Shown here one piece after another: positions 8,846 to 53,473 of a stretch of 64,000 bases of DNA. The position numbers and the translations under genes are program-made. Every line of letters starts with the position of its first letter. Within the stretch, counting starts at the first letter, position 1. The notes beneath the pieces were generated by a model, which saw only the letters and a list, made by a program, of their open reading frames with translations, did no database searches and was not told the origin of the DNA. The stretch comes from Ceratorhiza oryzae-sativae (taxonomy: Eukaryota; Basidiomycota; Agaricomycetes; Cantharellales; Ceratobasidiaceae): contig JARWMV010000243.1 of NCBI GenBank assembly GCA_030998015.1, forward strand, positions 496,001 through 560,000, in the 5' to 3' direction.

Positions 8846-10125
8846 TTGAAAACACACAAGCAGTATTGCACCACCAATCTGGAACCCCAGTTTCCTCAGG
8901 CTCTGACTCGGGAATGTCCACTCCATTTTTTCAACCCCATTTTTACTCTTCCTGTACCACACTTTAGTATATACCAGCCTCCACTTTGGTCAATCATTGA
9001 AAAAACCATACCATTGCTGGAAGAACACATCAACCCCAAAATGAAATTGGGGGCAACTCAGACCATGCTTCAGCTCACACTTCATGCTCTTGAGGACCCA
9101 AAAAGCATCCTTGAGCTCTTCTGTACCTATGTCAAAAAACCCAAAATATCCTGGACAGAAGCATTGGTCAACATTGCTCTGGCCAAAGATCAGGGTGAGC
9201 CACATGCCCAAACCTTACACTCATGAGCTTGTGCAGTAATTATTGACCTGGATTTTACACTCTGTGATAGCTATGGTCACAGCCAAAATGCATTGATAGA
9301 GCATGAAGAGTTCCAAAAGTTACTCTTGGAACATCTGCATAGTGTTGGCAAATATGTGACTACTATGCATGTAATCCAATTTACTGCTTGGTCAGACATA
9401 CAAGAGGACTGGGGGCTTACCAAACCTGTGTCTAAGACCACAGCAAAACACTGGATGCATGCTCTGAGGCATGAGCAGGGCCAGGTCTTGAAGCAGACCT
9501 ACTTTGATGGTAACAAGTGCCCAGATGATGTTGAATACTGTCAGGGCACTTATGTCAAAACCTGGAAGCAACTGGAGGGTTGAATGGAGTTGTTTGCATG
9601 CAAGAGGGATGAACCATCTAAGCTGCACATGGATCCAATCATTTGCCAAATTGTTGTCTGGTTCCAGGATGAATCAACATTCTGCACCAATGACTGGCAA
9701 ATATTTGTTTGGGCACTGACATTAGTGAGCCAAGACCCAATGCAAAAGGGTGAAGGGCATATGCTTATGGTATCTGATACAATATCTGCAGAATACAGAT
9801 GGATGGCCTTGCCAGACAGGTAATTATCCAATGTAAAATCTGCATATACCCCAAAATAACATGCTGTTTCAGATCAGATCAGGTGCAAGTGCTGTTCCAT
9901 GCTGGGAAGAATTGCAAGGGCTATTTTAATGCAGCCCATATGTACAAGCAAATTACCCATGCATGCAACATTCTAGCCAAACATTATTCAGGCAAGGATC
10001 ACTGGTTTGTGTTCAAAAACTCACCAATTCATCTTGCCTGCAGGCTAGATGCACTGTTAGTGACAAATATGCCAAAGTTCACACCAAAGGTGGGGTTGAA
10101 GAACTTCCTTGTTGAGGTGACTGAC
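8846..10125 (+). pseudogene. DDE transposase-like protein of a basidiomycete element (relic)
   Basis: Consecutive frames resemble a widespread agaricomycete transposase-like family. There is a helix-turn-helix-like part (LLLEHLHSVGKYV ... SKTTAKHWMHALRH) at 9293-9583, then VVWFQDEST and KGEGHMLMVSD at 9584-9822, then VLFHAGKNCKGYF and LAKHYSGKDHWFVF after a frame change near 9830. The Asp-rich WFQDEST and the WFVF.NS segment are where the catalytic acids of such DDE domains are expected; an Asn-Ser appears where Asp-Asn is usual. An in-frame TGA at 9581-9583 and loss of frame near 9230 show that it is inactive. Assignment comes from remembered family motifs, not a search. Confidence 0.6.
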
Positions 10126-10422
10126 AAGGAAGGTGTCAGAGCCAATGACCTGAACAGTAACACCTAACACTTGTGGGGCAAAGGCAGATCCAAGGGCTGT
10201 GATGCTGAGGATCAAGACTGCAACATCTAAGAAGGGATGCACAGTGAGGAGGATGGGTGCAACAACATGCAGAGGGGTTTCAGAAGTGCACTTGACCTTA
10301 GAGGTCTGGGCAGAGACTGCTTGGCTTGGTGACTGTGCAGGTAGAAGGTAGATGTCAACAGGAGGTTGAGTTCTGAGGCTTAAAGCTCTCAGACTCTCCC
10401 TTATATATTCATGGATGAGGCT

Positions 10423-10427
10423 ATACA
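10423..10427. repeat. Target-site duplication ATACA (left)
   Basis: Identical to 17816-17820 on the other side of the LTR unit. Removing the unit with one copy restores continuity with the second foldback copy near 19720. Confidence 0.85.
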
Positions 10428-11096
10428 TGTTATGACCCATCAAACAGACATAACAGAGTAACCAAATATTTTTACAGATTTATGGCATTTTTCCTAAGCA
10501 GAACAAGCCATAAACAAGGTCATGTGACCTTGGCACTTAACTGGCGCTTACAGTGGTTACCCTGAACTCACTCCAGCATTTCTCTCCCTTGTTACTTGGA
10601 GCGAGGAGTGAGTTGTCACATGATCTTGGCGCTTACAGCAGGATCACATGACCTCAGTGCTTATGGTGGTTACCCTGAACTCGCTCCAGCATTTCTCTGC
10701 ATTGTTACTTGGAGCAAGGAGCAAGTTGTCACGTGATCTCAGCGCTTATGGCAGGATCATGTGACCTCAGCACCTACCCCTCAGACCTCACACAGCTCTA
10801 TAAGATTCGGAGCTGCACAAACTTAAGACAAACAATTACCTAACCCATAGTACTGTACATAACCTGCACCTACTGTGGATTGTGCTTAGATAATACATCC
10901 GCAGCCACTGCAGCCACAGGCATATATAAGAAGGATAAAGCAAGACTGGACACCTCAGCTTGCTTTATCTCATCAACCACCATAGACCATAGCAAACACT
11001 GTAACTAGAACACTCAATACATACTGCATAGCACCAAACCATCAATGCAACCACTACTTAAGTGCTTTGCAAGGAAGCATCCAGAGGGTCACAACA
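10428..11096 (+). repeat. 5' LTR of the composite element
   Basis: TGTTATGACC ... GGTCACAACA. It contains two tandem ~113-bp units with GGTTACCCTGAACTC at 10555 and 10668, each near a GTCACGTGAC-like palindrome. A TATA motif (CATATATAAGAAGG, about 10920) and CT-rich initiator sequence follow. Many CpGs of the solo copy at 14197 are TpG or CpA here. Confidence 0.85.
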
Positions 11097-12888
11097 TTAT
11101 AAAGCAAGCCTAGAAGGGACAGAAGAACCTATTGTGATATACACCAACCATAGGAACCTCCAGTACTGGCAAAATGCCCAGATGTGGAATAGAAGGCATG
11201 CCAGATGGTATCTCACTCTGGCACCCTTCAATTTTCAGATTGTGTATAGACCAGGGAAACTCTCACAGAAGCCAGATGCCCTTTCCAGAAGGAGCAACCA
11301 TGGGGACACCCCTATGGAACCACAGATCATGATTCCAGAAGAAAGGTTCATAGGTTTCAAGGCAGAGGTACAGGGGAATTTCTGGGAGGAGCTTAAAGAA
11401 GCTCAGGAAGAAGACAAATCTATCAGATCCTTAAGGCTGAGTGTGGCAAATAAAGAACAACTACCACCCTCAGTACAGAAGGAATTTAGATGGTACAAAA
11501 TGAAGGAGGGCCTATTAAGGTATGACGATAGGCTCTACATCCCAGATGACAAGGACTTGAGGTTGAGTCTCCTTGAGGAGTGCCATGATGCCCCTGTGGC
11601 GGGTCATCAGGGACAAGCCCAAACACTAGAATTACTATCAAGGGATTACTACTGGCCAGGAATGAAGGCCCAAGTAAACCAATATGTGGAATCTTGTGAA
11701 ACGTGTCAAAGAAGCAAAGGACACAAACAAGGCACTCCCCTGAAGCCCTTACCAATCCCATGGAAACCATGGGCAGATGTTGCATATGATTTCATCATCA
11801 AATTACCTGTCTCAAAGGGGTACGACAGCATCTTGACAGTTGTAGATCACTTCTCCTGGCAGGCCCATTTCGTACCATGTCTGGAGAGCACCAATGCAGA
11901 AGAACTGGCAGAAATATTCATAAGGGAGGTATGGAGACATCACAGGACCCCAGAAACCACTGTCTCAGACCAAGGGCCAACCTTTAACAGCCAATTCCTA
12001 AAAGCCCTATACAAGGGAATTGGGACAAAGCCCAGATTCTCCACTGCCTTCCATCCAGAAACAGATGGACTGTTGGAAAGAACAAATCAATGGGTAGAAG
12101 GGTTCTTAAGAACCTTCTGCAATTATAGACAAGATGATTGGGTAAAATGGTTACCCATTGCTGAATTCTGCCATAACAACCATGTAAATGCTACAACAGG
12201 ACAAACCCCATTTGAAATGGTATATGGAAAAAACCCAAGATGGGTTGTCTGAGAGGGAGAAGAACCATCTGAGGCACCCACTGCAGACAACATGTGTAAT
12301 CAAATGGAAAAGGTATGGGATGAGGCAAGAGCCTCAATGGAATTACACCAACAAATGGAAAAGAAAGGGAAGGAATTCAAGGTAGGAGACAAGGTTTGGC
12401 TGCTCCTAACAAACCTCTTGTCCAAGAGACCCTCCAAGAAATTGGACAACTGAAAAGGGGGCCCTTTTGAAATCACAGAAAAGATCTCATCCCATGCATA
12501 TCGCCTGGACCTACCTAAAACCATATGCATACACAATGTATTCCATGTAAATCTCCTCTTGCCATTCACAGAAGATAAAGACTTCCAAAGAAGGCAGGCC
12601 AAACCACCACCAATCATAACAGAAGAAGGAGAGGAGGAGTATGAGGTGGACCACATTGCAAATTATGAATGGCAGAATGGCAAGCTGTTTTACCAAATCA
12701 GATGGAAGGGCTACGACCCAATAGAAGACACAATGGAACGTGCCAGCAAGTTTGCTGACATGAAAGAGGTTCTAAATGACTTGCAAAGGTGCTTACCAGA
12801 TGCACCAATGCCAGTCAAGACGAGTCAGCACTCAGGTGACTCAAAAGGCAGGCCAAAGAGAACCAAACGAGGACCTGAAAAGCTTTAA
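11097..12888 (+). pseudogene. Gypsy chromovirus Pol fragment: RNase H - integrase - chromodomain
   Basis: One reading frame runs from the LTR edge to TAA at 12886-12888, broken only by in-frame TGA at 12250-12252 and 12451-12453. In order it shows the end of RNase H (YTNHRNLQYW ... YRPGKLSQKPDALSR), the integrase zinc finger (H..H ... CETCQ), the integrase core with YDFI, VSDQGP and the DDE glutamate in TDGLLERTNQ, a GPFEI-type C-terminal domain, and a chromodomain (EYEVDHI ... IRWKGYDP ... WE replaced by ME). This is the Tf1/sushi chromovirus layout. Gag, protease and RT are missing at the junction with the 5' LTR. Both stops are TGA, consistent with G-to-A decay of TGG or C-to-T decay of CGA. 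Confidence 0.9.
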
Positions 12889-12941
12889 AAAGAGCCATCC
12901 AGGATACCCAAGAAAGGCCAGAGCCCGCTCTACCACCTCAC

Positions 12942-13796
12942 TTGCACCACAATACACCCGCAAAACCCCAAAACATGCCTTTCATCACTCACCCAGTTGC
13001 ACATCCCAACTGTTACATGCCACTTGTTGAAAATCAGGTGGCCCCACTTTGGCAGCCACCCACCACTAGGCAGCCAGCACCCTACCCTGGCAGGGAAAAT
13101 CGTCCTAAACTAGGGATGTACTGCTCCAGCATGGAAGATGCCCAGAGGTACACCGAGCAACTGTTGCCAGGGGCTAACCTAGTGTACATCCCAAAGAAGT
13201 TAAGGGATGAAAGGAACTGGATCGACAATGACAAGTACCTGGATCCCAGGTTAGGGGTCCTGATATGGCATGGAAGCCAGAAGCCAACAACGAGAAACAC
13301 CTTGCTAAGAACACTGATGTATGTCATTGACAATATTGTGGGACCAATGGTCGATGTGGTGGCCAAGGCAGCAAGACAACAGAGGAGGTCTGCAGGCCAA
13401 ATGGCAGATGGGGGGGACTGGGAGGTGGAGTGCCAGGCCAAGGCATTTTTGGAAGAGTGGAAGTTGACACTGGCCACACCATATGTGGGACTGCTTGAAG
13501 CAACTACCACTGATGAGATGTTTACTGCTATCAGGACAAAGCAGGCAAACATGAGCAACTTCCGAAATTGGGTGAAGGTGCACCCAAACAAAAATGCCAA
13601 TTATGACACAGATATGACGAGCCTTATGTCAAGCCTAGAATCACTGGTCATGGCTGAGGAAGAAGCAAAGCCAGTGATAGAGGAACCCACCCTGGACCCA
13701 GCTGCGGAGGAAGCCAAACAGGACTGGGACTGGTGGGAAAATGAGCTTGTTGAAGCTCTGGAGGAGGTGCCACTGTTGGAACCAGCCCCCATATGA
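12942..13796 (+). CDS. Unknown ORF X beside the Rep-like gene
   Basis: An uninterrupted frame of up to 284 codons; the better start may be the internal Met at 13116. No family recognised. The middle is hydrophilic with several Trp (DERNWIDNDKYLDP, GVLIWHGSQ). The C-terminal third is Glu-rich and acidic (EEAKPVIEEP ... WWENELVEALEEVP). It lies downstream of the Gypsy chromodomain, on the same strand as the Rep-like gene, and converges with the Cys-rich gene on the other strand across only about 85 bases that include a T15-type run near 13840. An intact frame of this length in an otherwise decayed island is notable. It could be a captured replicon gene or a retroelement accessory ORF. Confidence 0.45.
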   Translation: MHHNTPAKPQNMPFITHPVAHPNCYMPLVENQVAPLWQPPTTRQPAPYPGRENRPKLGMYCSSMEDAQRYTEQLLPGANLVYIPKKLRDERNWIDNDKYLDPRLGVLIWHGSQKPTTRNTLLRTLMYVIDNIVGPMVDVVAKAARQQRRSAGQMADGGDWEVECQAKAFLEEWKLTLATPYVGLLEATTTDEMFTAIRTKQANMSNFRNWVKVHPNKNANYDTDMTSLMSSLESLVMAEEEAKPVIEEPTLDPAAEEAKQDWDWWENELVEALEEVPLLEPAPI

Positions 13797-13880
13797 CCAC
13801 AGTGCCTCTCACGGATTCTTTCTCAAATGTATAAGAGTTTTTTTTTTTTTTACATATCAAACCTAATACATTTTTGCTCT

Positions 13881-15088
13881 CTATTTACGTTTGCCCTTGA
13901 GGGGCTGGGTATAGGGTTTCTTGCCCTTTTTATCCTTCTTATTTGTCTGAACAACTGACTGGGTAGTGGGCTGCAGCCAAGGGGCCTCCCCCCCTGGGAA
14001 GTCAGCCATGTAGTTCTGGAAACACCCAGAACCGGACACTGCAAAGGGCGAAGCCTCATCAAACAAGGGGGCAGAGCCCTCCTTGAAGAATTTGGCAAGA
14101 GCAGCCTGGTGAGACTGCTCCTCAAAGGACTTGTAGTCCTGATCAATGAGCACCCAGACATGCTCAAGGGTGGCCTCATGGGCCTGACCATTGAGGTGTT
14201 ATGACCTGTCAAACAGACATAACAAAACAACCAAATATTTTTACAGATTTATGGCATTTTTTCCTAAGCAGAACAAGCCATAAACAAGGTCACGTGACCT
14301 CAGCGCTTAGCCAGCACTTACGGTGGTTACCCTGAACTCACTCCAGCATTTCTCTCCCTTGTTACTTGGAGCGAGGAGCAAGTTGTCATGTGATCTTGGC
14401 ACTTACAGAAGGGTCACGTGACCTCAGCGCTTACGGTTGTTACCCTGAACTCGCTCCAGCATTTCTCTCCATTGTTACTTGGAGCGAGGAGCGAGTTGTC
14501 ACGTGGTCTCGGCGCTTACGGCAGGATCACGTGACCTCAGCGCCTACCCCTTGGACCTCACGCGGCTCTATAAGATTCGGAGCTGCACAAACTTAAGATA
14601 AACAATTACCTAACCCATAGTACTGTACATAACCTACACCTACTGCGGAGTGTGCTTAGATAATACATCCACAGCCACCGCAGCCACAAGTATATATAAG
14701 GAGGATAAAGCAAGACTGGACGCCTCAGCTTGCTTTATCTCGTCAACCACCATAGACCATAGCAAACACTGTAACTAGAACGCTCAATACATACTGCATA
14801 GCACCAAACCGTCAACGCAGCCACTACTTAAGTGCTCCACAAGGGAGCCTCCAGAGGGTCACGACATGAGGAGTATGCACTCTTCTACAGAGCAAGTAAG
14901 TAACATGAGACCAATGAAGAAAAGGCACATGTACCTGGCACCCCATGGAAGGACCAGTCCCTGACACCTCCATAGAAGTCTTCAAGGGAGGTGTTGCACA
15001 TGGCATCGCAGTAGGCACAGTACTCCCCCTCAGGGAGAGACCAGCAGGTGCAGTCAAGGGGATTGTAGTTAAGGGAAATAACGCACAT
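13881..15088 (-). pseudogene. Cys-rich orphan gene Y, interrupted by a solo LTR
   Basis: Starts at ATG 15088 and ends at 13881. Exon 1 (15088-14935) encodes a Cys-rich head (DCTCW, YCAYCDAMC). A 50-base GT-AG intron (14934-14885) follows. Exon 2 then runs into the LTR at 14866 and resumes at 14196, continuing ILLNGQAHEATLEHVWVLID to a Lys-rich tail. Removing the LTR with one TGAGG duplication leaves a continuous frame of about 160 codons, so the gene was intact before the LTR landed. The Cys pairs suggest a metal-binding or disulphide head, but no family is recognised. It is transcribed divergently from the Rep-like gene and convergently with ORF X. Confidence 0.5.
14197..14866 (+). mobile_element. 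Solo LTR with TGAGG target duplication
   Basis: Same family as the LTRs at 10428 and 17147 (TGTTATGACC ... GGTCACGACA). It is flanked by TGAGG at 14192-14196 and 14867-14871, so it is an independent later insertion reduced to one LTR. It keeps many CpGs, including four CACGTG-centred palindromes, where the outer LTRs mostly carry TpG/CpA. That fits a younger age. Confidence 0.9.
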
Positions 15089-15820
15089 AGTAAAGATGGG
15101 ATGAGGAAGGGAAACAACAAAACCACAAACATTAAAAAATCACAGTGCAACACAATAACTTGCACAAACATCAAAACAAAGTCTGGTCAGGTGACACGAA
15201 CAGACATGTGACCATCTGCCAGAAAACAAACAACAAAGCACAGGAATCTCATGACCTAGCCTAGTCATGCAAATATACGCTATCCCCTAACTACTGGAGG
15301 GGTCGGAGAGGGGGCACCAACCAAAGTGGAGGAGCGGAGGCCCCAAGCGTAGCAAGGAATAAGGCCAATGCAGGGGAACACAGGAAGGGCACCCCTCAGG
15401 GATGCATCATAACCAGCACAAGCCTACATCAGGAAACCACATGACCACAACAACCAGAGAGGGTATATCTAGGGGACGCCTTTGGGGGTAAAAGGGGCTA
15501 TCATCTCATGCCCTCCCCATAAGACGCATCTACCTCTAAAAATACCAACAATGCTAAGCGAAGATGGCTTGAACATGGGAACACCCCAGCCAAACAAATC
15601 AAGCACAGGGCGGAGGTCAGCATCGCCATCACTGGTGCCCTTGGAATCAAGCTGAGCCCCCTCACCTGCTTCTATGTGGCTTATGCTGATGGATCGCAGG
15701 TCTGAAGAGCTGACTGAAACTGCACCAGCCCCCTGATTCTGTGTCCAGACCAGGGCGGTGCTGCTGACCTGGTCGAAGCTCTGCAATCAGCCCTCAAGTG
15801 GGCTCGCCACCTGATACGAG
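15089..15820. other. Intergenic region between gene Y and the Rep-like gene
   Basis: About 0.7 kb between divergent genes. A frame near 15720-15812 (ADLVEALQSALKWARHLIRG) could be an out-of-frame N-terminal part of the Rep-like gene. I found no canonical geminivirus nonanucleotide or clear origin stem-loop by eye. Confidence 0.35.
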
Positions 15821-16837
15821 GTGTTCTGCTGCCACTGGCCCAATCACTGGGCAACTTTAGCTGTGGTCAAACAGCACAACCCAGAGGAGCTGAACTATGA
15901 CCCAACCTGGCCCCTGCACGTCCATGCCCTTTCCATCAGTCAGGAACAGAAGGGCGGGTGGAACACCCAGAATGCAGGGTTTTGGGACTTCGAGGGGCAA
16001 CACCCCAACATACAGCCCAAAGACCTCAAGGACAGGCCAGGAGGCAACCCAGCAAGGGACACCTTCAACTATCTCTGGAAGGACGTCGGAGCTAATGGCG
16101 AGGAGATAGAGGATTTGATGGCAGGGGACCTGACCTTGGAAAGGTTGGAGGAGATCTTGGTGAAGGGAAAGGGCAGAAAACAGTCAAGGATGGAGGCAGA
16201 CTTGGAGGACAGGACGGAGATTGTTGCCTCAGTGATGAAACAGGAGTACTACCAGGTGTTCAAGCACCTCTGCCCCCTCCAGATGGTGATGATGTGGAAC
16301 TCAGTACGAGCATATGCTGAGTACACATACAAGGAAGACCAGGGTTGCATGCCTGCAATCCCTGTGGAGTTAGAGGTCCTGAAAGACTGGGAGCACATTG
16401 ACTGAGCAGACAGATGGTTTGCCGAGGAGGTCAAGAAGAGGGGAAGAGGGGTGCACCATCACATCCTGGTGATAGAAGGAGAAACTGGAACAGGGAAAAC
16501 AGTGTATGCACGATCCAAGGGCTGCCACAGCCAGATGTGCAATGTGTGGAACATGGGCAACTTGTTGGAAGATGCCAACATTTGGATCCTGGACAACATG
16601 GTCCAGTCAAACAGGAAGTACTTGCTCAAGGCCCTGAGCCAGTATGAGGCAGACTTCATGGGCAGGTATGCACACATGAAATTGATGAAGGTACAGCCAA
16701 CAGTTATTCTGGGAAATAGCCAGTCAGCAATCATGAAGTGTTGGTTGGACATAGAGGGGGAAGAGGGGGACTTATGGGTATCAAGAAATGTAGAATGGGT
16801 GTATGCAGGAGGAAAACCATTCTTTGTATTCCCTTAA
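15821..16837 (+). pseudogene. CRESS-DNA Rep-like protein (HUH endonuclease + SF3 helicase), broken
   Basis: Replication initiator of the geminivirus/genomovirus type; such proteins nick and rejoin ssDNA replicons. Counting from the frame's first codon at 15821, visible motifs are the HUH motif HVH (codons 15917-15925), a GRS-like segment FWDFEGQHPNIQ (about 15979-16014), the catalytic YLWK fitting YxxK (16070-16081), Walker A GETGTGKT (16478-16501), a Walker-B-like IWILDN (about 16579) and motif C ILGN (about 16710). An in-frame TGA at 16403-16405 separates the nuclease and helicase halves; both halves are in one frame. The N-terminus is also disrupted: an in-frame stop at 15812 precedes the frame, which begins with GTG. 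It is an endogenous, inactive copy inside an LTR unit. Helitron and rolling-circle plasmid Reps were considered, but the GRS plus SF3 order argues for the CRESS class. Confidence 0.8.
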
Positions 16838-16970
16838 AATAATTTACTGTATTGTACAACTTCTGCTATGCCCATCCAAACAGTTGGGGCATTCTGAGAA
16901 GAAGCAGATGACTCCTCACCCCTAAATAACCTCTGCAACAAGAAAAGAAAAAACAATCTCATGTAATGAA

Positions 16971-17065
16971 GAGGCTAAGGGGTCTAGCCTGACTCAGCCT
17001 GACCTCATCAAACAATACTGAATCAGCTGAAAGGTTGTTGGTTCAAGTCCAGCACCCTTAACCTC
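16971..17065 (+). other. tRNA-like / pol III SINE-like relic
   Basis: A B-box-like GGTTCAAGTCC lies at 17040-17050. The ends GAGGCTAAGG and CCTTAACCTC can pair over ten positions with one mismatch, as in an acceptor-stem-like fold with a long variable part. The A box is poor and no clean cloverleaf or anticodon could be assigned, so this is a relic at best. Confidence 0.35.
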
Positions 17066-17130
17066 CTTGGTGCATGAGATTCCTTTTGCATAAGGATCTA
17101 AACCATGTCTCAAGGTCCCCCAAGACATGT

Positions 17131-17146
17131 CCAAAGGGGGGGATAA
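17131..17146 (+). other. Polypurine tract before the 3' LTR
   Basis: CCAAAGGGGGGGATAA abuts the LTR start, the usual plus-strand priming site of LTR retroelements. Confidence 0.7.
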
Positions 17147-17815
17147 TGTTATGACCCATCAAACAGACATAACAGAGTAACCGAATATTTTTACAGATTT
17201 ATGGCATTTTTCCTAAGCAGAACAAGCCATAAACAAGGTCATGTGACCTCAGTGCTTAACTGGTGCTTACAGTGGTTACCCTGAACTCGCTCCAGCATTT
17301 CTCTCCCTTGTTACTTGGAGCAAGGAGTGAGTTGTCACATGATCTCGGCACTTGCAGCAGGATCACATGACCTCAGCGCTTACAGTGGTTACCCTGAACT
17401 CACTCCAGCATTTCTCTCCATTGTTACTTGGAGTGAGGAGCGAGTTGTCACATGATCTTGGTGCTTATGGCAGGATCACGTGACCTCAGTGCTTACCCCT
17501 TGGACCTTGCATGGCTCTATAAGATTCAGAGCCACACAAACTTAAGACAAACAATTACCTAACCCATAGTACTGTATATAACCTGCACCTACTGCAGATT
17601 GTGCTTAGATAATACATCTGCAGCCACTGCAGCCACAGGTGTATATAAGAAGGATAAAGCAAGACTGGATGCCTCAGATTGCTTTATCTTGTCAACCACC
17701 ATAGACCATAGCAAACACTGTAACTAGAACACTCAATACATACTGCATAGCACCAAACCATCAATGCAGCCACTACTTAAGTGCTTCACAAGGAAGCATC
17801 CAGAGGGTCATGACA
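17147..17815 (+). repeat. 3' LTR of the composite element
   Basis: 669 bp, the same length as the 5' LTR and similar along its whole length; ends GGTCATGACA. Differences from the other copies are mostly C/T and G/A at ancestral CpGs. Confidence 0.85.
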
Positions 17816-17820
17816 ATACA
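17816..17820. repeat. Target-site duplication ATACA (right)
   Basis: Matches 10423-10427. The sequence continues as ATACATTTGAAATA, aligning with GTACATATGAAATA of the second foldback copy. Confidence 0.85.
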
Positions 17821-17995
17821 TTTGAAATACAAAGGTGTACAATATAATGAAAGTGGTGCCATGTCAACAGAATATTCTTGAATACATCAACAATGGTCAA
17901 ACACAAGGTCATGTGACTCAGTCAATAATTCTATGCATATATCCAAATAAGTGGGACTTGTCCAAAAACCAGAAGAGAGAGGTAAAATAAAATAA

Positions 17996-18357
17996 TACAA
18001 AAATCAGAACAAAATTGCAGTCATGGTCTAGGCCATGAAAGTGCTGGTTCTAATAATAGACCCAGGTCCAACTGGGCACAGCAAAGGCCAGTGTCTGGCC
18101 AAGGTCTGGCCAAGAAAGAAAAGAGGGGAGGGAGACTGAGGGTGGCTTACAACAGTAATCAAGCCAAGTGTAAATGTGTCATGTATGCACAGAATATGTG
18201 CAGCAGCAAAGTATATGACTCACATGTACTTGTAGGGTATAAATAAGGGCTCTGCAAGCCTCTTGTACCCCATCAATTTTACTCATGTGCACACATTCCT
18301 TTTGTAAATCCTTTCTATACATTAAATATATACATTTGATTTCTATATGCTGTTGAG
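17996..18357 (+). repeat. Unassigned insert with LTR-like promoter
   Basis: Has no counterpart in the second foldback copy. A TATA motif (GGGTATAAATAAGGGC, about 18236) followed by a pyrimidine-rich tract and ATTAAATATATA resembles an LTR R/U5 region. It shares short stretches with 7050-7150. Confidence 0.35.
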
Positions 18358-18832: not shown

Positions 18833-18892
18833 TTGGGTCTGCCTTTGCCTCACCAGCATAGCTCTATTGTGTTCAGGTTGTTGGCTCTGATA

Positions 18893-19045
18893 CATACCCA
18901 ATTAAGACATGCCAACAGCCAAAGCTGAAGATGGTGGGATTTGACATGAGTGGAACAGGCTAGTTTTTGGACTTCAACGCAAGACAATTTAGTCCACTAG
19001 ACATGGGCAGCCTCCATACAGGGCTGGCAGGGCAGCATGCAGGGG
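18893..19045 (-). repeat. Inverted copy of 21126-21280
   Basis: The segment beginning CCCAATTAAGACATGCC and including CTAGTTTTTGGACTT and CATGGGCAGCCTCCAT recurs in reverse complement at about 21126-21280. It starts exactly where the foldback element ends, so the foldback probably inserted into it. Confidence 0.7.
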
Positions 19046-19275
19046 TATTTTCACAAAAAAATGCAATTGGTGCATATACCAAACAAAATGCACAGACAGG
19101 CCACTCTATTGTCCAGAATTGTTGGAGACCCTGACACATGGAGCTTTGTGAGCTCCACAGTTTGATTTTGAAATTTTAGGCTGTATGCTCACAGCATGCT
19201 CACTTGTCTGTACATTTTGTTTGGTACATGCACCAATCACATTTTTTTGCAAAAATACCCCCACATGCTGTGTCA
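19033..19275. repeat. MITE-like element with ~60-bp terminal inverted repeats
   Basis: GGGGTATTTT ... CCAAACAAAATG on the left recurs as CATTTTGTTTGG ... AAAATACCCC on the right, separated by about 125 bp. Flanks contain GCATGCA and ACATGC, but the target duplication is unclear. No coding sequence. Confidence 0.7.
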
Positions 19276-19425
19276 TGAGCCACAATCAAGGTCTTGTGGC
19301 TAACCATCATTTTCCCTTTTGTTTACCACCTTTGTCTCATGGCTTGACCACCTCCCTTCCATGAGTGAGCACCTCCACTTGCTTACTGAGCCACATCCTA
19401 TTCTTAGTCTTGTCATGGCCTAGAC

Positions 19426-20403
19426 TGTCAGAGCCAACAACCTGAACAACAATGCCAAACACTTATGAGGCAATGGCAGATCCAAGGGCTGTAACGTCAA
19501 GGATCAAAAGGCTGCAATGCCTAGAGGGGGACATGCAGTGAAGGGATAGGTTGTGACAACATGCAGAGGGGATTCAGAAGTGCACTTGTGCTTAAGAGCA
19601 CTGGGCAAGTACTAAGTGGCTTGGTGACCAACTCAGGTAGAAGGGATGATCAACAGGAGGTTGAGTTCTGAGGCTTAAGGCTCTCAGACTCTCCCTTATA
19701 TATTCAACAATGAGGCAGTACATATGAAATAGGAAGCCTAGGTAAATCATGTGATAACAGAAATGGTGCCATGTCAACAGAATATTCCAGAATACATCAA
19801 CAATGGTCAACAACAAGGTCATGTGACTCAGTCAGTAATTCTATGCATATATCTGAATAAACAGGACTTGTCCAAAAGGCAGGAAAAAGAGGTAAAGTAA
19901 ATCATAATAAATTTATCCAAATTTTATTATGATTTATTTTACCTCTATTTTTTTTTGGACAAGTCCTGGTTATTCAGATATATGTGTAGAATAACTGACT
20001 GAGTCATGTGACCTTGTTGTTGTTGACCACTGTTGATGTATTCCAGAATATTTTGTTGACATGGCACCATGTCTATCATTGTACAATTTACTTAGACTTC
20101 TTATTGCATATGTACTGCCTCTGCTGTGAATATATAAGGGAGAGTCTGAGAGCCTTAAGCCTCAGAACTCAACCTCCTGTCAATATCCCCTTCTACCTGT
20201 GTGGTCACCAAGCCTAACAGTTCCTGCCCAGACCTCTTTAGGTCAAGCACACCTCTGAACCCCCTCTGCATGTTGTCACACTCCCTTCCCTCACTGCACA
20301 TCCCTTCTTGGCATTGTAGTTAGGCCCTCAGCTGTCATAGCCTTTGGGTCCACCATTGCCTTATAAGCATTTGGCACTGTTGTTCAGGTTGTCAGCTCTG
20401 ACA
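19426..20403. repeat. 0.98-kb near-perfect palindrome (foldback element, copy 2)
   Basis: Left arm starts TGTCAGAGCC and right arm ends CTCTGACA. The two ~485-bp arms are reverse complements, including the TATATAAGGGAGAGTCTGAGAG block (19684-19710 against 20131-20157). They meet at GGTAAAGTAAATCATAATAA / TTATTATGATTTATTTTACC around 19892-19942 with a loop of about ten bases. It is either a foldback transposon or two head-to-head LTRs. Confidence 0.8.
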
Positions 20404-20900
20404 AGTCTCTTGCTTACTGGTCACTGCCATTCACCTTACTCATCTTACTGCTTGCTGACTGATGGACATACTGTTACTAGTAACTGGCTGACTGATCACC
20501 ACCATTCCTTCTTACTCATCCTGCATGTATGCTTAGTCACTCCCTTGGTTAGAATAGTATAAAAGCAAGGAGAGCAAGCTGGTCTACCCCAGCTTGCTCT
20601 ACCTTGTCAATTCCCCTCTAAAGCATCCAGTGTGAAGATCAGTCCCTAGCTGACTTATTAGCTCAAGTAACAGCTAGAAGGGCCTTGAGTCAAGGCCATG
20701 TTGCAAGCCCCAGCCCTAAGCACCTGACTTAGCCACTGTCCACAGTTGCTTACTCAGCAATGGGTGTCCATCAGCCATGAGCACATAAAGTGCATAAAAT
20801 GTCAAGCCACAAGATGGTAGACACACACAAGGCATCAAGCTGACATGAGCCACACATCAGTGGTAGTCAGGACATAGTCCAGACCCATTAGGGGCATTAG
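20404..20900 (+). repeat. Degenerate LTR-like sequence
   Basis: GTATAAAAGCAAGGAG near 20555, followed by CCAGCTTGCTCTACCTTGTCAA, resembles the promoter/R region of the 669-bp LTR (AGCTTGCTTTATCTCATCAA). Boundaries are not visible and there is no coding sequence. Confidence 0.35.
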
Positions 20901-20904
20901 CCAC

Positions 20905-21090
20905 TCTCTGCAAAATCTGTGGGTGCAAATAAACCAGGGGCTAGTTCATGCATTCATTGTATGCAATGAATGCCAATTGCACCAATGAACAGGTGTCAGT
21001 TGCACAAATTGCATGCCATGAACACATTTACTAGCCCCTGGTTTATTTGCATGTCATGAACTGCAATTGCACCCTGAGATTTTGCAGAGC
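20905..21090. repeat. MITE-like inverted repeat
   Basis: CTCTGCAAAATCT and GCAAATAAACCAGGGGCTAG on the left pair with CTAGCCCCTGGTTTATTTGC and AGATTTTGCAGAG on the right. A short internal palindrome (CATTCATTGTATGCAATGAATG) sits between the arms. Non-coding. Confidence 0.65.
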
Positions 21091-21125
21091 TTGTAAAGCA
21101 AAGTCCAACAACTGCTCTCAGAGGT

Positions 21126-21280
21126 TGTGACATGCTGCCCTGCTGGCCCTGCATGGAGGCTGCCCATGTCCAGTAGACCAAATTGACTTGTGTCAAAGTC
21201 CAAAAACTAGCCTGCCCCACTCATGTTAAATCCTGCCATCTTCAGTTTTGGTCATCAGCATGTCTTAATTGGGCATGCAT
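21126..21280 (+). repeat. Inverted copy of 18893-19045
   Basis: Contains AAGTCCAAAAACTAG and TGTCTTAATTGGGCATG. It is the reverse complement of the earlier segment with scattered transitions. Confidence 0.7.
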
Positions 21281-26321: not shown

Positions 26322-29300
26322 TTAAACCTCCGCCCCATCAGCCGCGTAGAGCCACTGTGCACCCTGAGGGGGGTCTGCCGAGATATTAGGTGTGGGCTGC
26401 GTTGAGCTAGAGCCATCGGTTTGAATCGGAGGCTGGGATTGGGCTTGGGATTGAGGAGTGGCATGTGGGGCGGTTGACGAGGGTGGCTGCGCCCTCGCCT
26501 GGTTCGACTTGGCCTGCGCTCTTGTATATCCTCCATGGCCTGCTCCTCGACCTCTCTACACAGTTCCGGTATAACGCGGGAATACCGTGCGCCGTTGGGG
26601 AGCCGTTCGCCCATGCGAGCCATGCCGTGTCGGAACGTCTCAATCTCGCTACGAATGATGGTCTAGAGAATAAGTTAGACCAAGGTTAACCTCTAACCGT
26701 TGTGGCTCACTGCTTGGTCGAAATCGCCCATAAAGAGAGCAGAACCGTATAACCTAATCATCCACCGAGCTGCCATAGTCCAGTGGCTCTAAAGAAATAC
26801 CCGTCAGCCTTTCTGGTTCAGATGAAAGCGATTATTTGCAAAATACGCACGAGCATATTGTGTGGGAGATGAGAGAAATCATACGTCGTGCTCAGCAGTC
26901 GGTATAACGCATCCAGTATTGCGCGTGATGCATTGGTACACTTGAGCACCGAAGGATCATTGCGCGAATCTGGATCGCAGTGTGAGTCATGCAACAGGAT
27001 GGTCGCTCTGCAGCAAGAACTGGTTAAAACGACGACCAATACAAATCTCGTCAATACTCACACATGTGGAACTAACAAGGCGGATAGCAAGATCCCATCA
27101 AAGACACCAGCTCCAGGTCCGACACCTCCTACTCCCATAGCAAGGCCACCTACCGTATTCATGCCCGGCAAACCAGCCCACCTCAGCACCCTTCCATGCT
27201 CATCGAAGACCGCACCGGGTGGTGGCGCATCAAACGCATCTCGGAAGGCACGGGGTATGCTGAGCCGGAATGACGCGATCTGCGAATCGAGGGTTTTGAA
27301 AGCCGGCACGGTACGCAAATCCATCGTGGTGGCTGCATCTCCGATGCGTGTGCGGAGACGAATGTTAAAGTTGGTGATACGCGAAAGCCTGAGTAACAAT
27401 CTTGTTAGCAACGCATATAACTGCTTGAAGGGGGGGAACATACAGTGCGTTGGCTTTGACCAGGAGCACAAAAGAATCCGTAAGCGGAAGATCGTGGCGG
27501 GTCAACAAATCTGGTGTCATAAGCTTTTGCCGCTTATAGCCGTTCGGTTCTTCCTGTGACCCACGGTTAAAATCTATTCCACAGCAGCTACAAAAAGTGA
27601 CTCACCCCGTTCTCAAAGAACGCCAAGGTCATCGGTAGATCCTGCCCTACATCCAAATCATCAATCGCCATTGGCCAGGCAGTTCCTGCCCCCTGTCCCC
27701 GATCAAGCACTACGAACAGAGCGCTCGGTCAGCCAGAAATGCCCGAAAAACTTTCTTCCGCCAAGCCCTCTCGGGCCCTGTCTCCCCTCTCGTACAAAAG
27801 CAGCTCCACTCACGTAGGCGTGCCAAAAAGTTCTTCTCCGTACCTCTGCCTCTACCACATCGGTTGTTGGCCTCAAAATCGACTCGCTTTTCCAGTTGCC
27901 TGCTCGTCCGCGTCCTCGTCGCGGTGGCCGCGCTTGTGGGATATTTTCCACGTTATATGGCACAGGTCCCGGCGTGGTCATCATCTGGGGAGACTTCGGA
28001 GAGTTGACGTTTGTGGGAGTTTGAGAGTACGACCCCAGCATGCTCATCCATTCCGGCATCGGCGTCGCGCTAGCTCCGGTGCTTGTCCCTGTTCTAGACC
28101 CAGTACCAACACCCGCGTTGTACGATATTCCTGTGGCTCCAAAGTTCAGAGTCCCATCGGGGTTGAAGCTCAATTCCTCGACGTTGAAACTTGTCGCTGC
28201 GTCTTCGGCAAAGCTAGGGACCCCGCTTGCGCTAGGATTTTGGACAGAGCCAGGCATGGGCGGAGCGCCCTCTTGAGCAAGCGCTGCGTTGAGGCTCGTA
28301 GTGCCAGGAGAGCTCAGACCAGGCGAGACCTCGGAGATGCTGGGAGAGTCCATGCCTGCCATCCCAGGAACACCCGGTCCACCAGTGATATGATCGTCAA
28401 AGGAAGCACAAGCAGTGAGTCCAATGGGAATGCAATATCCTTTTCAACAATAATAATACAGGATTCAGCCTTATACATAAATAGACAAGTATTGAGTCCA
28501 GACTCACGCATGATCATCCCTGTGATCGACCACGCCTCACTCCACCTTGCATTTGCAGACATCCACCAACACAACACAACCAGTGCTTGTACGCCCTCTA
28601 ACAGCCGTCGCCCGGTTCTGCAATCATCCAACGCCTTGGCAAAACACAAGGCCGCATGTTTTTCCCCAAACGAGAGATCATCCGACATCGTACTATTCCC
28701 ACTCCGACCAGAATATCCAGCGTACGTGCCCGAGCCCTTGGCGGCCTCGAGACGACTTCTCAATCTCTTGATTTTTTCGATCTCCTCGGGGGGTCGGAAT
28801 ACGCTCCCGAGGATCGGCCCCGAGTTGAAGTCGAGCGAGCCACCGCCGGGCTGTGGGGCGTATAGTGAACCCACGGCGGCGATGGCATGGAGGAGGGCTG
28901 GGGACGGAAAGGCTGCGTGTGTTGGGGGAAACGTGAGGCGGGTGAGAAAGGTTGGGCGATGGAGGAGATGGGGTGCCATGGCATGTGAGGCGAAGAATGT
29001 TCGAACGCTAGCCTCGAGTACGCATCAGTGATGGCTTGGAACCTGGAGGGAGCTACTTACAGGTGAGTCATTGTGTATGGGTCGGGGAGTTCCTCTGGCC
29101 AGCTGTACGGCAACAGAGAGTTGATCTCGGGAATAGGACCGATGTTGCCTACACCAAAAGCCGTGCTCTGCCCCACCACATAGGGATCAACTCCAGGAAT
29201 GTTCATCAGAGTGGACATGGTTGTGTTATTTCGTTGCAGAATTTCGGCGTCTTCGCCTATTAACATTGATGCGATCGTTCGATCCATTCCGATACCAGCA

Positions 29301-51040: not shown

Positions 51041-51314
51041 GGCCTCGGTAATGGTTGAATTTGGGAGAACGAGTGGCGCGTGTGGCGTACTGAGTCACAT
51101 GATAGCTATGAGCGCTCGGCGCCTATTGTGCAACAAGTTCACACAATCACGGATAGGCCTGGGAACCGTGCGCATTTATACCGCCAACCAACCACCACCT
51201 CTGTATCAGCCCTCGCTGCATCCTCCAAGAGCCTACAAATAACGATTTATCTGTTGTCTTTGACCCTCCTATATCTGTGAATTATTCATAATATCGCATA
51301 TTATCACTAGCTTC
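51041..51314. promoter_or_regulatory. Bidirectional promoter of MSH4 and BPL1
   Basis: A 274-bp gap between divergent starts. No element assigned. Confidence 0.5.
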
Positions 51315-53473
51315 ATGCCACCGATAGACGTTCTGATCTACAACGGGCCCGGTGTCTCTGAGACCTCTCTGTATCAGACTCAAAAAACTCTGAAAGATAT
51401 TCTGACGCCTAACTATACTGTCAAAGAGGTCGACGCCAAACTGATAGAGACAGAACCCTGGCCGGAGAGCTGTGCTTTGCTAGTTATTCCTGGCGGTCGA
51501 GATTTGCCCTACGTCCAACATTTGGCTAATTCGATCGACAAGATCAAAAAATTTGTTAGAGAAGGTGGTGCATATCTCGGTATTTGTGCTGGTGCCTATT
51601 TTGCGTCCTCCCGGGTCGAGTGGGAGGTCGGCACACCACTCGAGGTAGTAGGGGATCGCGCACTCAAATTCTTCCCTGGAACCTGTAGAGGCTGCGCATA
51701 TCCCGGGTTCGAGTACGAAAGCGAAAAGGGGGCGCAGCTACTGGATATCACTGCGACAATCCACGGCGACGAAACCGAACAGCCTTTCGAGGGGATATAC
51801 TATAACGGCGGAGGTGTGTTCGAAGGCGCGGATAGTCCACAAATGCGCACCCTCGGCGTAAAGGTAGTCGCTCGGTATCCTAATGGGAAACCTGCCGGGG
51901 TCACCTGTGTAGTTGAGCGAGGGACGGCTGCACTCTGGGGGTTGCACCCTGAGTACTCGACCAACCGAGATCCATACCGGACTGTCCTCGAACATACCTC
52001 CCAAGCGGATACGGGCAATATGCCAGTTAGAGAACAGAGGCGTCTCGAGCTCATGCGAGGAGTTTTAGGCGGCCTAGGTCTCGATATTCCCGGTGGCGCG
52101 GCGAGCAATAGGCTTCCAACAGCGCCTTTGCCACAGCTATTGTCCGCGTCTCCCTATCGACCAGGGGTGGTGACGACCATCTGGAATGAACTTCGACCCC
52201 ACCTCCAACCATCTCGAGAGGCCCAAGGGGTTTACATACTGGATGACTCTCAGGACAAATTCAGGTTCTTTAATAGTTCAAGCGGTAGACTTGCTATGGC
52301 ACGAAAGGAAGCCGAGGCTGAAGAGTCGTCTGGTCCTCCACCCAACACGCCACGAGACATCATCTACTACGATTCATCCCTCCCCCCTGATATAGACACT
52401 CCACTTTTCAGTGTGGCCTCCTATTTCGAAGCACTTCATAGAGCTCGAGAAAACAAATCTTTCATATCCAACGCGAAATGGGGTATTGGTGAGGCCCTGC
52501 TATATGGAGAAGCTGTAACGAGTACCCAATCTCTCTTGGACAGGCTAGTACAATTATCTTCTATCGCGTCAGCCCAGCTCTTAACCTGGTCTACTAGGAA
52601 TGCTACTCTCCTTTCTTCGCTGCCTCATCCACTGCTCTCCTTGGCGACTATACAGCTGGCTGGTAGGGGCCGCGGAACCAATGCTTGGCTTTCCCCTTTA
52701 GGGTGCTTGCAATTCTCAATCCTGCTGAAGGTCCCAAAAGAGATTCAATTCCATCGCATGGTGTTCATCCAGTACCTCTTCGGTTTGGCTGTTACTGAGG
52801 CTTGCCGCAAAGTTCTGCCTGACACTGAGGGCGGCCGAGTGCGGCTCAAATGGCCGAACGACGTTTACATTCTCCGAGAGGATGGGACAAAGAGTAAGAT
52901 CGGCGGGATACTAGTCACAACAAATTATATGGGCGATACGATGCACGTCGTAATAGGTGAGTATTGCGTGTGTGAATATTTGCTAGCCAGTTAAGGCCAT
53001 TCATTGTATACACCACTAGGTTGTGGACTCAATGTCCTTAATAACCAGCCAACCGTAAAGTCTCTGGCCCAACTATTCTCCAGCGGCCCTCCTGAATCCC
53101 TGACGATGGAAAACATGGCTGCAAATCTCATGGCGACATTCGAGGTCATGTGGCGACAGTTTGCTGAAGCAAAAGGCTCTTTCGAACCATTCTTTAACTT
53201 GTACCTGGAACGGTGGTTACATTCGTACGTGATTTCTAAAATAGACGCGGTTGATATTTGCGGAGTCTAATGGTTCGCAGGGATGAGCTTGTTACGCTCG
53301 AAACCACTACCCCATCAACCCGTGTCCGTATATGCGGGATTAGCATGGAAAATGGCTTCTTGCAAACATTGCCTGAGCCGGGTCAATTGCTGAGTACGGG
53401 AGAGTTCATTTATTTACAGCCAGATGGGAATAGTTTCGATATGATGAAAGGACTAATCAAAACGAAGAAATAA
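51315..53473 (+). CDS. BPL1: Biotin--protein ligase (holocarboxylase synthetase)
   Basis: Attaches biotin to carboxylases such as acetyl-CoA and pyruvate carboxylase. The N-terminal half is the glutaminase-like domain typical of fungal BPL1 (VLIYNGPGVSE, LLVIPGGRDLPY, GGAYLGICAGAYFAS). The C-terminal half is the BirA-type ligase: VTSTQSLLD, the biotin-binding loop LAGRGRGTNAWLSPLGCLQFS, LKWPNDVYI, K-IGGILV, IGCGLNVLN and a C-terminal cap domain ending GLIKTKK. Introns are 52544-52597 (GC-AG, 54 nt, in frame), 52957-53019 and 53225-53280 (GT-AG). Removing the first joins SLLDR to NATLLSSLP, as expected for the family. Reading through it adds 18 unconserved residues without a stop. Confidence 0.94.

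Follow-up and report, generated by a model that had tools for sequence, protein, structure and literature searches.

A CRESS-type Rep gene as a probable accessory gene of a Ty3/gypsy retrotransposon family in Ceratorhiza oryzae-sativae

Does a viral-type Rep frame lying among retroelement sequences of a fungal genome record the integration of a virus, or does it belong to the retroelement? The question is raised by a locus in the window analysed here, a stretch of 64,000 nucleotides from Ceratorhiza oryzae-sativae, in which the original prediction saw an endogenous Rep of the geminivirus/genomovirus type, placed at 15821–16837 and split by a single TGA. The motifs on which that prediction was built are present as claimed in one frame of the forward strand, namely, HVH (motif II, about 15917), a GRS-like segment FWDFEGQHPNIQ (about 15980), YLWK (motif III, about 16070), GETGTGKT (Walker A, about 16478), IWILDN (Walker B, about 16583) and ILGN (motif C, about 16703). 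The TGA at 16403 is also there, but it is one of four in-frame stops (15653, 15734, 15812 and 16403), all of them TGA. Likewise, the end of the proposed span holds but its start does not: position 15821 merely marks where a GTG first occurs past a stop, the homologous frame, judged by intact copies, begins 270 bases further upstream, at 15551, and motif I (LTWS, 15764) falls outside the span first given. We therefore delimit the decayed Rep-like gene as 15551–16837.

The Rep-like gene and the element around it

The Rep-like gene is the last gene of an element that spans positions 10428 to 17815 and has the anatomy of an LTR retrotransposon. Its 5' LTR (10428–11096), which begins with TG and ends with CA, and its 3' LTR (17147–17815) are direct repeats on the forward strand, edged on the outside by the target-site duplication ATACA (10423–10427 and 17816–17820). 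The 5' LTR carries a TATA box at 10923 and, at 10957, the self-priming complement AGCTTGCTTTAT of 12 nt, to which the primer-binding site TTATAAAGCAAGC (11097–11109) is complementary; the match extends over 11 bases in this copy and 12 in others, and we take it to correspond to the self-priming of Tf1-type elements. A polypurine tract, AAGGGGGGGATAA (17134–17146), stands directly before the 3' LTR. No tRNA was found at 16800–17300, nor any Rfam family at 10000–18000.

Between these termini, the copy in the window is incomplete. Gag, protease and reverse transcriptase are deleted, and what remains of pol is the end of RNase H and an integrase (11110–12251; H2C2 present, rve below the cut-off), followed by a decayed pol end (12252–12878) in which a Tf2-like SH3 domain and a chromodomain were named from a natural copy, L039. 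ORF2, of 305 residues, occupies 12879–13796. On the opposite strand lies a two-exon gene, whose cysteine-rich exon 1 of 51 residues (14936–15088) is separated by an intron (about 14885–14935, boundaries set by eye) from exon 2, represented by its 5' end (14867–14884, the boundary being read by eye from the splice signal) and by its larger part (13881–14196). Exon 2 is cut by a further LTR of the same family (14197–14866, forward strand), identified from the direct repeats and flanked by its own duplication, TGAGG (14192–14196 and 14867–14871). As the two outer LTRs are both edged by ATACA and the middle one by TGAGG, the latter is a solo LTR nested within a single element, which the outer pair bounds; this rules out a tandem of three LTRs.

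The two LTRs differ by a K2P distance of 0.0845, with 52 changes, of which 50 are transitions and 2 transversions, compared with distances of 0.012–0.034 in five other copies. The CpG observed/expected ratio is 0.19 and 0.05 in the two Rep pieces of the window, against 0.63–0.82 in seven natural copies. Taken together, the LTR divergence, the excess of transitions and the CpG depletion point to an old, probably methylation-decayed copy of a more recently active family, and the stops in its Rep are best read as decay. Recoding of TGA is ruled out by the four TGA stops, the CpG-depleted state of the copy, the transition-biased LTR divergence and the open frames found elsewhere.

The surroundings of the element include nested inverted repeats at 18890–21280 (arms 19631–19816/20017–20202, 19528–19630/20202–20304 and 18890–19039/21131–21280), some of which share sequence with 10134–10428, just left of the element; they may represent a different repeat family that was the target of the element's insertion. 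Further along the window, two ordinary host genes were recognised, encoding a biotin-protein ligase (51264–52994; Pfam BPL_N and BPL_LplA_LipB) and a protein with a fungal-specific transcription factor domain (28314–29024, reverse strand).

The Rep-bearing family in the genome

A search of the 48.8-Mb assembly (253 contigs) revealed that Rep is repeated many times over. The N-terminal piece has at least 150 matches (the best 150 of 201 candidates), the C-terminal piece at least 150 (the best 150 of 190), and the integrase was scored at 105 loci out of 1112 first-look candidates. The two Rep pieces adjoin at 137 of the 150 scored N-piece loci. ORF2 is found 1–6 kb upstream on the same strand at 109 of the 150 scored Rep loci, at a median distance of 2.29 kb, and the integrase 2–10 kb upstream at 80 of the 150 N-piece loci. 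Conversely, Rep lies 2–12 kb downstream of 88 of the 105 scored integrase loci and, among the matches listed, within 10 kb downstream of 120 of 129 ORF2 loci; again among the Rep matches listed, 15 of the 105 integrase loci have no Rep within 16 kb. The opposite-strand control, run for the Rep–ORF2 and integrase–ORF2 pairs, gave 2/150 and 0/105, respectively. The polypurine-tract string AAGGGGGGGATAATGT occurs 145 times genome-wide and 0 times in the control, and 96 of the 100 tracts listed (out of the 145) have a Rep within 3.5 kb upstream. In these linkage counts, two second-piece rows of the integrase search and one row of the ORF2 search had been dropped beforehand, the Rep set was enlarged by 13 C-piece loci lacking an N-piece hit when Rep was related to polypurine tracts and to integrase, and one C-piece anchor (on contig C253) was placed at its far end, an offset of 335 bases.

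Ten copies, selected because their Rep frames are open, were fetched with their surroundings. The order integrase, chromodomain, ORF2, antisense region, Rep and 3' LTR is kept in all ten, some of them bearing nested insertions, and the junction of polypurine tract and LTR is present in each. A 5' LTR was found upstream in nine, every one of which has the 12-nt complement between LTR and primer site, with AGCTTGCTTTAT about 34 bases past the TATA box. Exact 5-bp target duplications flank all five copies for which both ends are in hand, as well as the window copy. These paired TG...CA LTRs with target duplications, and the polypurine tract and self-priming site that go with them, are the termini and priming sites of a Ty3/gypsy element. 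The corresponding domain set is found in two copies taken together: L023 encodes gag (Ty3 capsid domain and a zinc-knuckle match), protease, reverse transcriptase and RNase H, and L039 reverse transcriptase to integrase, a Tf2-1-like SH3 domain and a chromodomain (E 5.7e-5), its rve and Chromo matches being significant but just under the Pfam cut-offs. In gag, protease, reverse transcriptase, RNase H, integrase, SH3 domain, chromodomain, self-priming and 5-bp duplications, the element resembles the Ty3/gypsy chromoviruses of the Tf1/sushi type, to which it adds ORF2, the spliced antisense gene and a CRESS-type Rep before the 3' LTR.

Two loci, L042 (C26:117384–126383) and L041 (C42:29182–38181), carry a more divergent chromovirus pol, with 52–69% identity in the matched stretches. 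No Rep was found in the 9 kb at either locus, and other pol sequence follows in both. After the chromodomain of L041 there is a faint ORF2-like stretch (34% identity over 50 residues, E 0.001), a hint that the element may have had ORF2 before it had Rep. Elsewhere, at C143:11017–15535 (reverse strand), two Rep matches lie on one strand only 3.9 kb apart; they may be a tandem or nested pair, possibly a sign of multimeric circles.

Selection on the accessory genes was assessed from codon substitutions. The same 429-codon Rep frame is open in all ten copies, which were chosen for this feature, and 428 codons were compared. Among these chosen copies, the 21 pairs that join different subfamilies have dN/dS values of 0.088–0.152 at pS values of 0.29–0.37; within subfamilies the ratio is higher (0.14–0.78), as expected once inserted copies decay. 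Fixed differences between groups fall mostly at third positions in the C-terminal half of Rep, in contrast to those 1.3–1.9 kb upstream, and are almost absent from the N-terminal half and much of the region between, so that the copies are mosaics. Judging from these substitutions, Rep is kept by purifying selection in the element family. A count by eye puts 31 of the 150 N-piece matches listed in open frames 429 residues long or longer, with the match itself free of stops. For comparison, the pol of L039 gave dN/dS values of 0.11–0.58 against other stretches, one far-diverged stretch yielding no value.

ORF2 is open in many copies, with dN/dS values of 0.23–0.41 when the window copy is compared with 11 homologous stretches, and of 0.06–0.51 for the ORF2 of L025 in ten stretches. 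It has no convincing known domain: a weak match to Pfam RE_XamI was obtained for four of six alignment members (best E 0.0037). Natural copies of the antisense gene consist of an exon 1 of 51 residues, a GT-AG intron (by eye) and an exon 2 of about 105 residues with a basic tail. Exon 2 is free of stops in all 12 stretches compared (the query copy included, one being partial) and has dN/dS values of 0.11–0.23 between subfamilies, and exon 1 has one stop, in 1 of 12 stretches. Both ORF2 and the antisense gene are thus apparently under purifying selection. The intron of the latter would survive retrotransposition because the sense RNA does not splice it.

Identity of the Rep-like protein and its relatives

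The assignment of the protein begins with its motifs, for which we assumed the usual CRESS definitions. A loose pattern demanding six motifs in the CRESS order is matched by 11 of 77 homologous proteins, many of which are fragments, and by none of 200,000 composition shuffles of one of them (P0001), in which the HUH trio alone and the helicase trio alone each occurred 14 times. The ordered motifs are not due to chance. Of 24 natural rows that are full-length and were picked because they contain YLW and GKT, 13 retain motif I exactly, 20 motif II, 23 HPN and 24 motif III, and on the helicase side 21 retain Walker A, 24 Walker B and 20 motif C. Motif columns are also somewhat better conserved than their surroundings, at 0.92 versus 0.79 in the HUH part and 0.91 versus 0.87 in the helicase part. 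The natural proteins hence display the HUH motifs I, II and III (YxxK) in order, and Walker A, Walker B and motif C of an SF3 helicase as motifs. Between motifs II and III lies a conserved block, FWD(F/Y)EG.HPNI, which we take to be GRS-like.

Profile searches, as the original prediction had advised, were also made. The Pfam family Gemini_AL1_M was matched at E<=1 by 9 of 22 and 10 of 33 alignment members, its best match (E 0.001, 19.5 bits) being below the cut-off of 24 bits. At E<=0.5 it was matched by five of ten proteins (P0008, P0009, P0021, P0023 and P0024), with positions 10–12 to 106 of its 107 covered and the match ending at the P-loop; P0003, P0006, P0022, P0027 and P0038 were unmatched. 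Neither an HUH nor, with single sequences and alignment members against Pfam, an SF3 profile matched the family, and neither Gemini_AL1 nor Gemini_AL1_M was found above its cut-off. Against the genome, Gemini_AL1 (PF00799) returned nothing at E<=1, its controls giving no match either, and Gemini_AL1_M hit no Rep locus but two weak sites elsewhere. No solved CRESS Rep was matched by the family profile in the PDB, and single-sequence searches of Pfam, PHROGs and the PDB with the two halves found nothing. An AlphaFold2 model (mean pLDDT 36) is too poor for reading the fold.

Could the protein then be a P-loop protein, SF3-like or of another kind, whose HUH-like motifs arose by chance? Besides the missing HUH profile match and the unusable model, it may be held in favour of this that other families matched the alignment below threshold, nSTAND3 as often as Gemini_AL1_M (21 of 33 members, best E 0.043), and also Jiv90 (0.0048) and P53_TAD (0.0052). 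However, nSTAND3 covers about 20–40 positions round the P-loop and Gemini_AL1_M nearly its whole length, and the ordered HUH trio and the six motifs arose in 14 and 0 of the 200,000 shuffles, respectively, which makes such a coincidence very unlikely. We have good confidence, drawn from motif order, spacing, conservation and the Gemini_AL1_M match, that Rep is of the CRESS type (HUH and SF3). The narrower claim of the original prediction, that it belongs to the geminivirus/genomovirus branch, we grade as likely, since Gemini_AL1 and solved CRESS Reps were unmatched. With the Reps of these viruses it shares motifs I, II and III, Walker A, Walker B and motif C in order, and the weak Gemini_AL1_M match, a putatively GRS-like block lying between motifs II and III; it differs in falling below the Pfam cut-off and in its surroundings, where neither a virus genome nor a capsid nor a recognised origin was found.

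With regard to an origin, no hairpin with a nonanucleotide, as a rolling-circle replicon would have, was found: ten copies were scanned for one nonanucleotide pattern, over an interval reaching 2.7 kb upstream and 2 kb downstream of the Rep anchor, and showed no conserved CRESS-like hairpin. The string TAATGTTAT spans the junction of polypurine tract and LTR in all ten, and was rejected as an origin since its flanking stem does not exceed 3 bp; it is also simply the polypurine tract plus the LTR end.

Intact copies, whose search in related fungi had been proposed at the outset, exist in this genome as the ten open frames, and relatives of Rep occur in other Ceratobasidium. An intact natural Rep retrieved 49 proteins, from Ceratobasidium sp. 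AG-Ba, 395, 428, 394 and UAMH 11750 (all annotated as hypothetical protein) and, for the remainder, from unnamed entries on short contigs with sources labelled jgi and lgn. The Rep profile extended this to 77 proteins, adding Ceratobasidium sp. 414 and a jgi entry, P0070, annotated as a Cdc6-like AAA superfamily ATPase; among the 8000 scored candidates sharing most words, the profile found nothing outside the Rep family. Six named Ceratobasidium records thus contain Rep relatives at the protein level. AG-Ba belongs to the Ceratobasidiaceae, and its Rep proteins share 0.63–0.74 identity with those of this genome. In a FastTree phylogeny of 28 proteins, midpoint-rooted and devoid of support values, the sequences group largely by source; with this identity, Rep is a gene that several species have in common, through descent or transfer. 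ORF2 has five relatives, all in AG-Ba and 41–46% identical. The C-terminal part of an AG-Ba protein, P0028, resembles antisense exon 2 (E 6e-4 against 82 proteins). One scan of IMG/VR with 44 pattern matches contained no Rep relative, a plasmid search with P0001 gave two chance-level hits, and a phage search with P0009 gave none.

Role of Rep and competing explanations

With high probability, the gene is an integral part of an LTR retrotransposon, which would have captured a CRESS-type Rep and retained it as a functional accessory gene. In this Tf-like Ty3/gypsy chromovirus of Ceratobasidiaceae fungi, a module of three genes lies between chromodomain and 3' LTR, namely, ORF2 in sense, the two-exon antisense gene, and Rep with its putative HUH nickase and SF3 helicase. 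Its anatomy fits LTR-driven transcription, self-primed reverse transcription and integration with 5-bp duplications, and the window copy is an old, 5'-deleted member that was probably decayed by methylation.

The reading from which this study started, in which a gemini- or genomovirus-like virus had integrated here and the retroelements are mere neighbours, draws on the Rep-like motifs and on precedent: geminivirus-like Reps integrated in fungal genomes, which the original prediction had rightly invoked, are described in the available text of PMC3198968, as are several endogenous viral sequences inside host genes or transposons. A viral gene of that kind would be flanked by host DNA, outside the termini of other elements. 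Here, in contrast, Rep lies within one LTR pair and one target duplication, before the element's polypurine tract, and its position is constant among the ten copies fetched; it is linked to the element genome-wide, and its protein family spans several species. We regard this reading as extremely improbable, the shared LTR pair and target duplication ruling out a separate viral integration; Rep is an internal module of one retrotransposon family, copied and selected with it. As for the further suggestion that a related replicon once entered this lineage, a Rep that is copied and selected with a retrotransposon says little about when a virus last did so. That Rep is passive cargo, caught with a stretch of DNA and bearing the constraint of an earlier life, would agree with the many broken copies and the small share of open frames given above. 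However, there is little chance of it, in view of dN/dS values of 0.09–0.15 at synonymous distances of 0.29–0.37 within one genome (among copies chosen for open frames) and of conservation across species.

If Rep acts for the element, as these considerations suggest, the question is how. We tentatively propose, as a possibility somewhat short of even, that it acts by nicking and unwinding extrachromosomal DNA of the element itself (linear forms or one-LTR circles), the most direct role for a nickase-helicase, and would thereby raise the number of DNA copies available for integration. A more elaborate, and in our view doubtful, version supposes a two-mode element, in which reverse transcription would be followed by rolling-circle multiplication of the circular product by the captured Rep, with ORF2 and the antisense protein assisting. 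The main alternative to a role on extrachromosomal DNA is that Rep counters host cytosine methylation, as geminivirus Rep reportedly lowers plant maintenance methyltransferases, a precedent cited in PMC6338049 as far as that text is available. The CpG decay of the family would be consistent with this, but most of the HUH and helicase motifs have been preserved, to a greater extent than binding alone would require, and we consider it unlikely. It has also been proposed, in the accessible part of PMC6338049, that virus-derived accessory domains of retrotransposons are antiviral, and the element-borne Rep might accordingly interfere with genomovirus-like CRESS viruses of the fungus to the profit of the host. 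This is very improbable, as the IMG/VR scan offers no matching virus and as selection on a gene of a many-copy element is easier explained by a benefit to the element.

Among the closest known systems is the geminivirus-like TIR transposon of Tuber melanosporum, with 42 Rep genes or remnants that, save for one, form a single clade; it has 37-bp terminal inverted repeats, transposase ORFs, an interrupted Rep and no obvious target duplications (PMC3198968, available text). Both cases concern a gemini-like Rep amplified within a fungal mobile element. They differ in that the present element has, in place of terminal inverted repeats and missing target duplications, direct LTRs with target duplications, as well as a reverse transcriptase and Rep copies that are open and under selection. 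The main text of PMC3198968 contains none of the terms retrotransposon, LTR, gypsy and reverse transcriptase. Retroelements that have retained an extra ORF gained elsewhere are found in bdelloid rotifers, as LTR retrotransposons with a captured ORF3 (PMC5408684), and in insects, with a viral SF1 helicase (PMC6338049). As far as the available portions of these two reports go, the captured genes are env, esterase, exonuclease and RNA-virus helicase, with no rolling-circle initiator. Nor did we find a Rep inside an LTR retrotransposon described in the open-access literature, including the accessible parts of PMC7758297 and PMC10707223.

Gene capture by LTR retrotransposons and Rep capture by eukaryotic genomes were both known already. 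Where a rolling-circle initiator is a standing gene of an abundant Ty3/gypsy family and subject to purifying selection, two replication worlds meet that are usually separate. With Rep inside an RNA-copying element, one element carries two kinds of replication gene. On the sequence evidence gathered here, we take the many-copy, selected viral-type Rep of a fungal Ty3/gypsy retrotransposon to be real, and dual replication to be a possibility; if the two-mode version were true, a CRESS-type replicon and a Ty3/gypsy element would have merged into one selfish unit. The Rep-bearing element provides a system for testing whether a retroelement can make use of a further step of DNA replication or of a viral protein that counters silencing, and the number of Rep genes in a fungal genome need not record viral infections.
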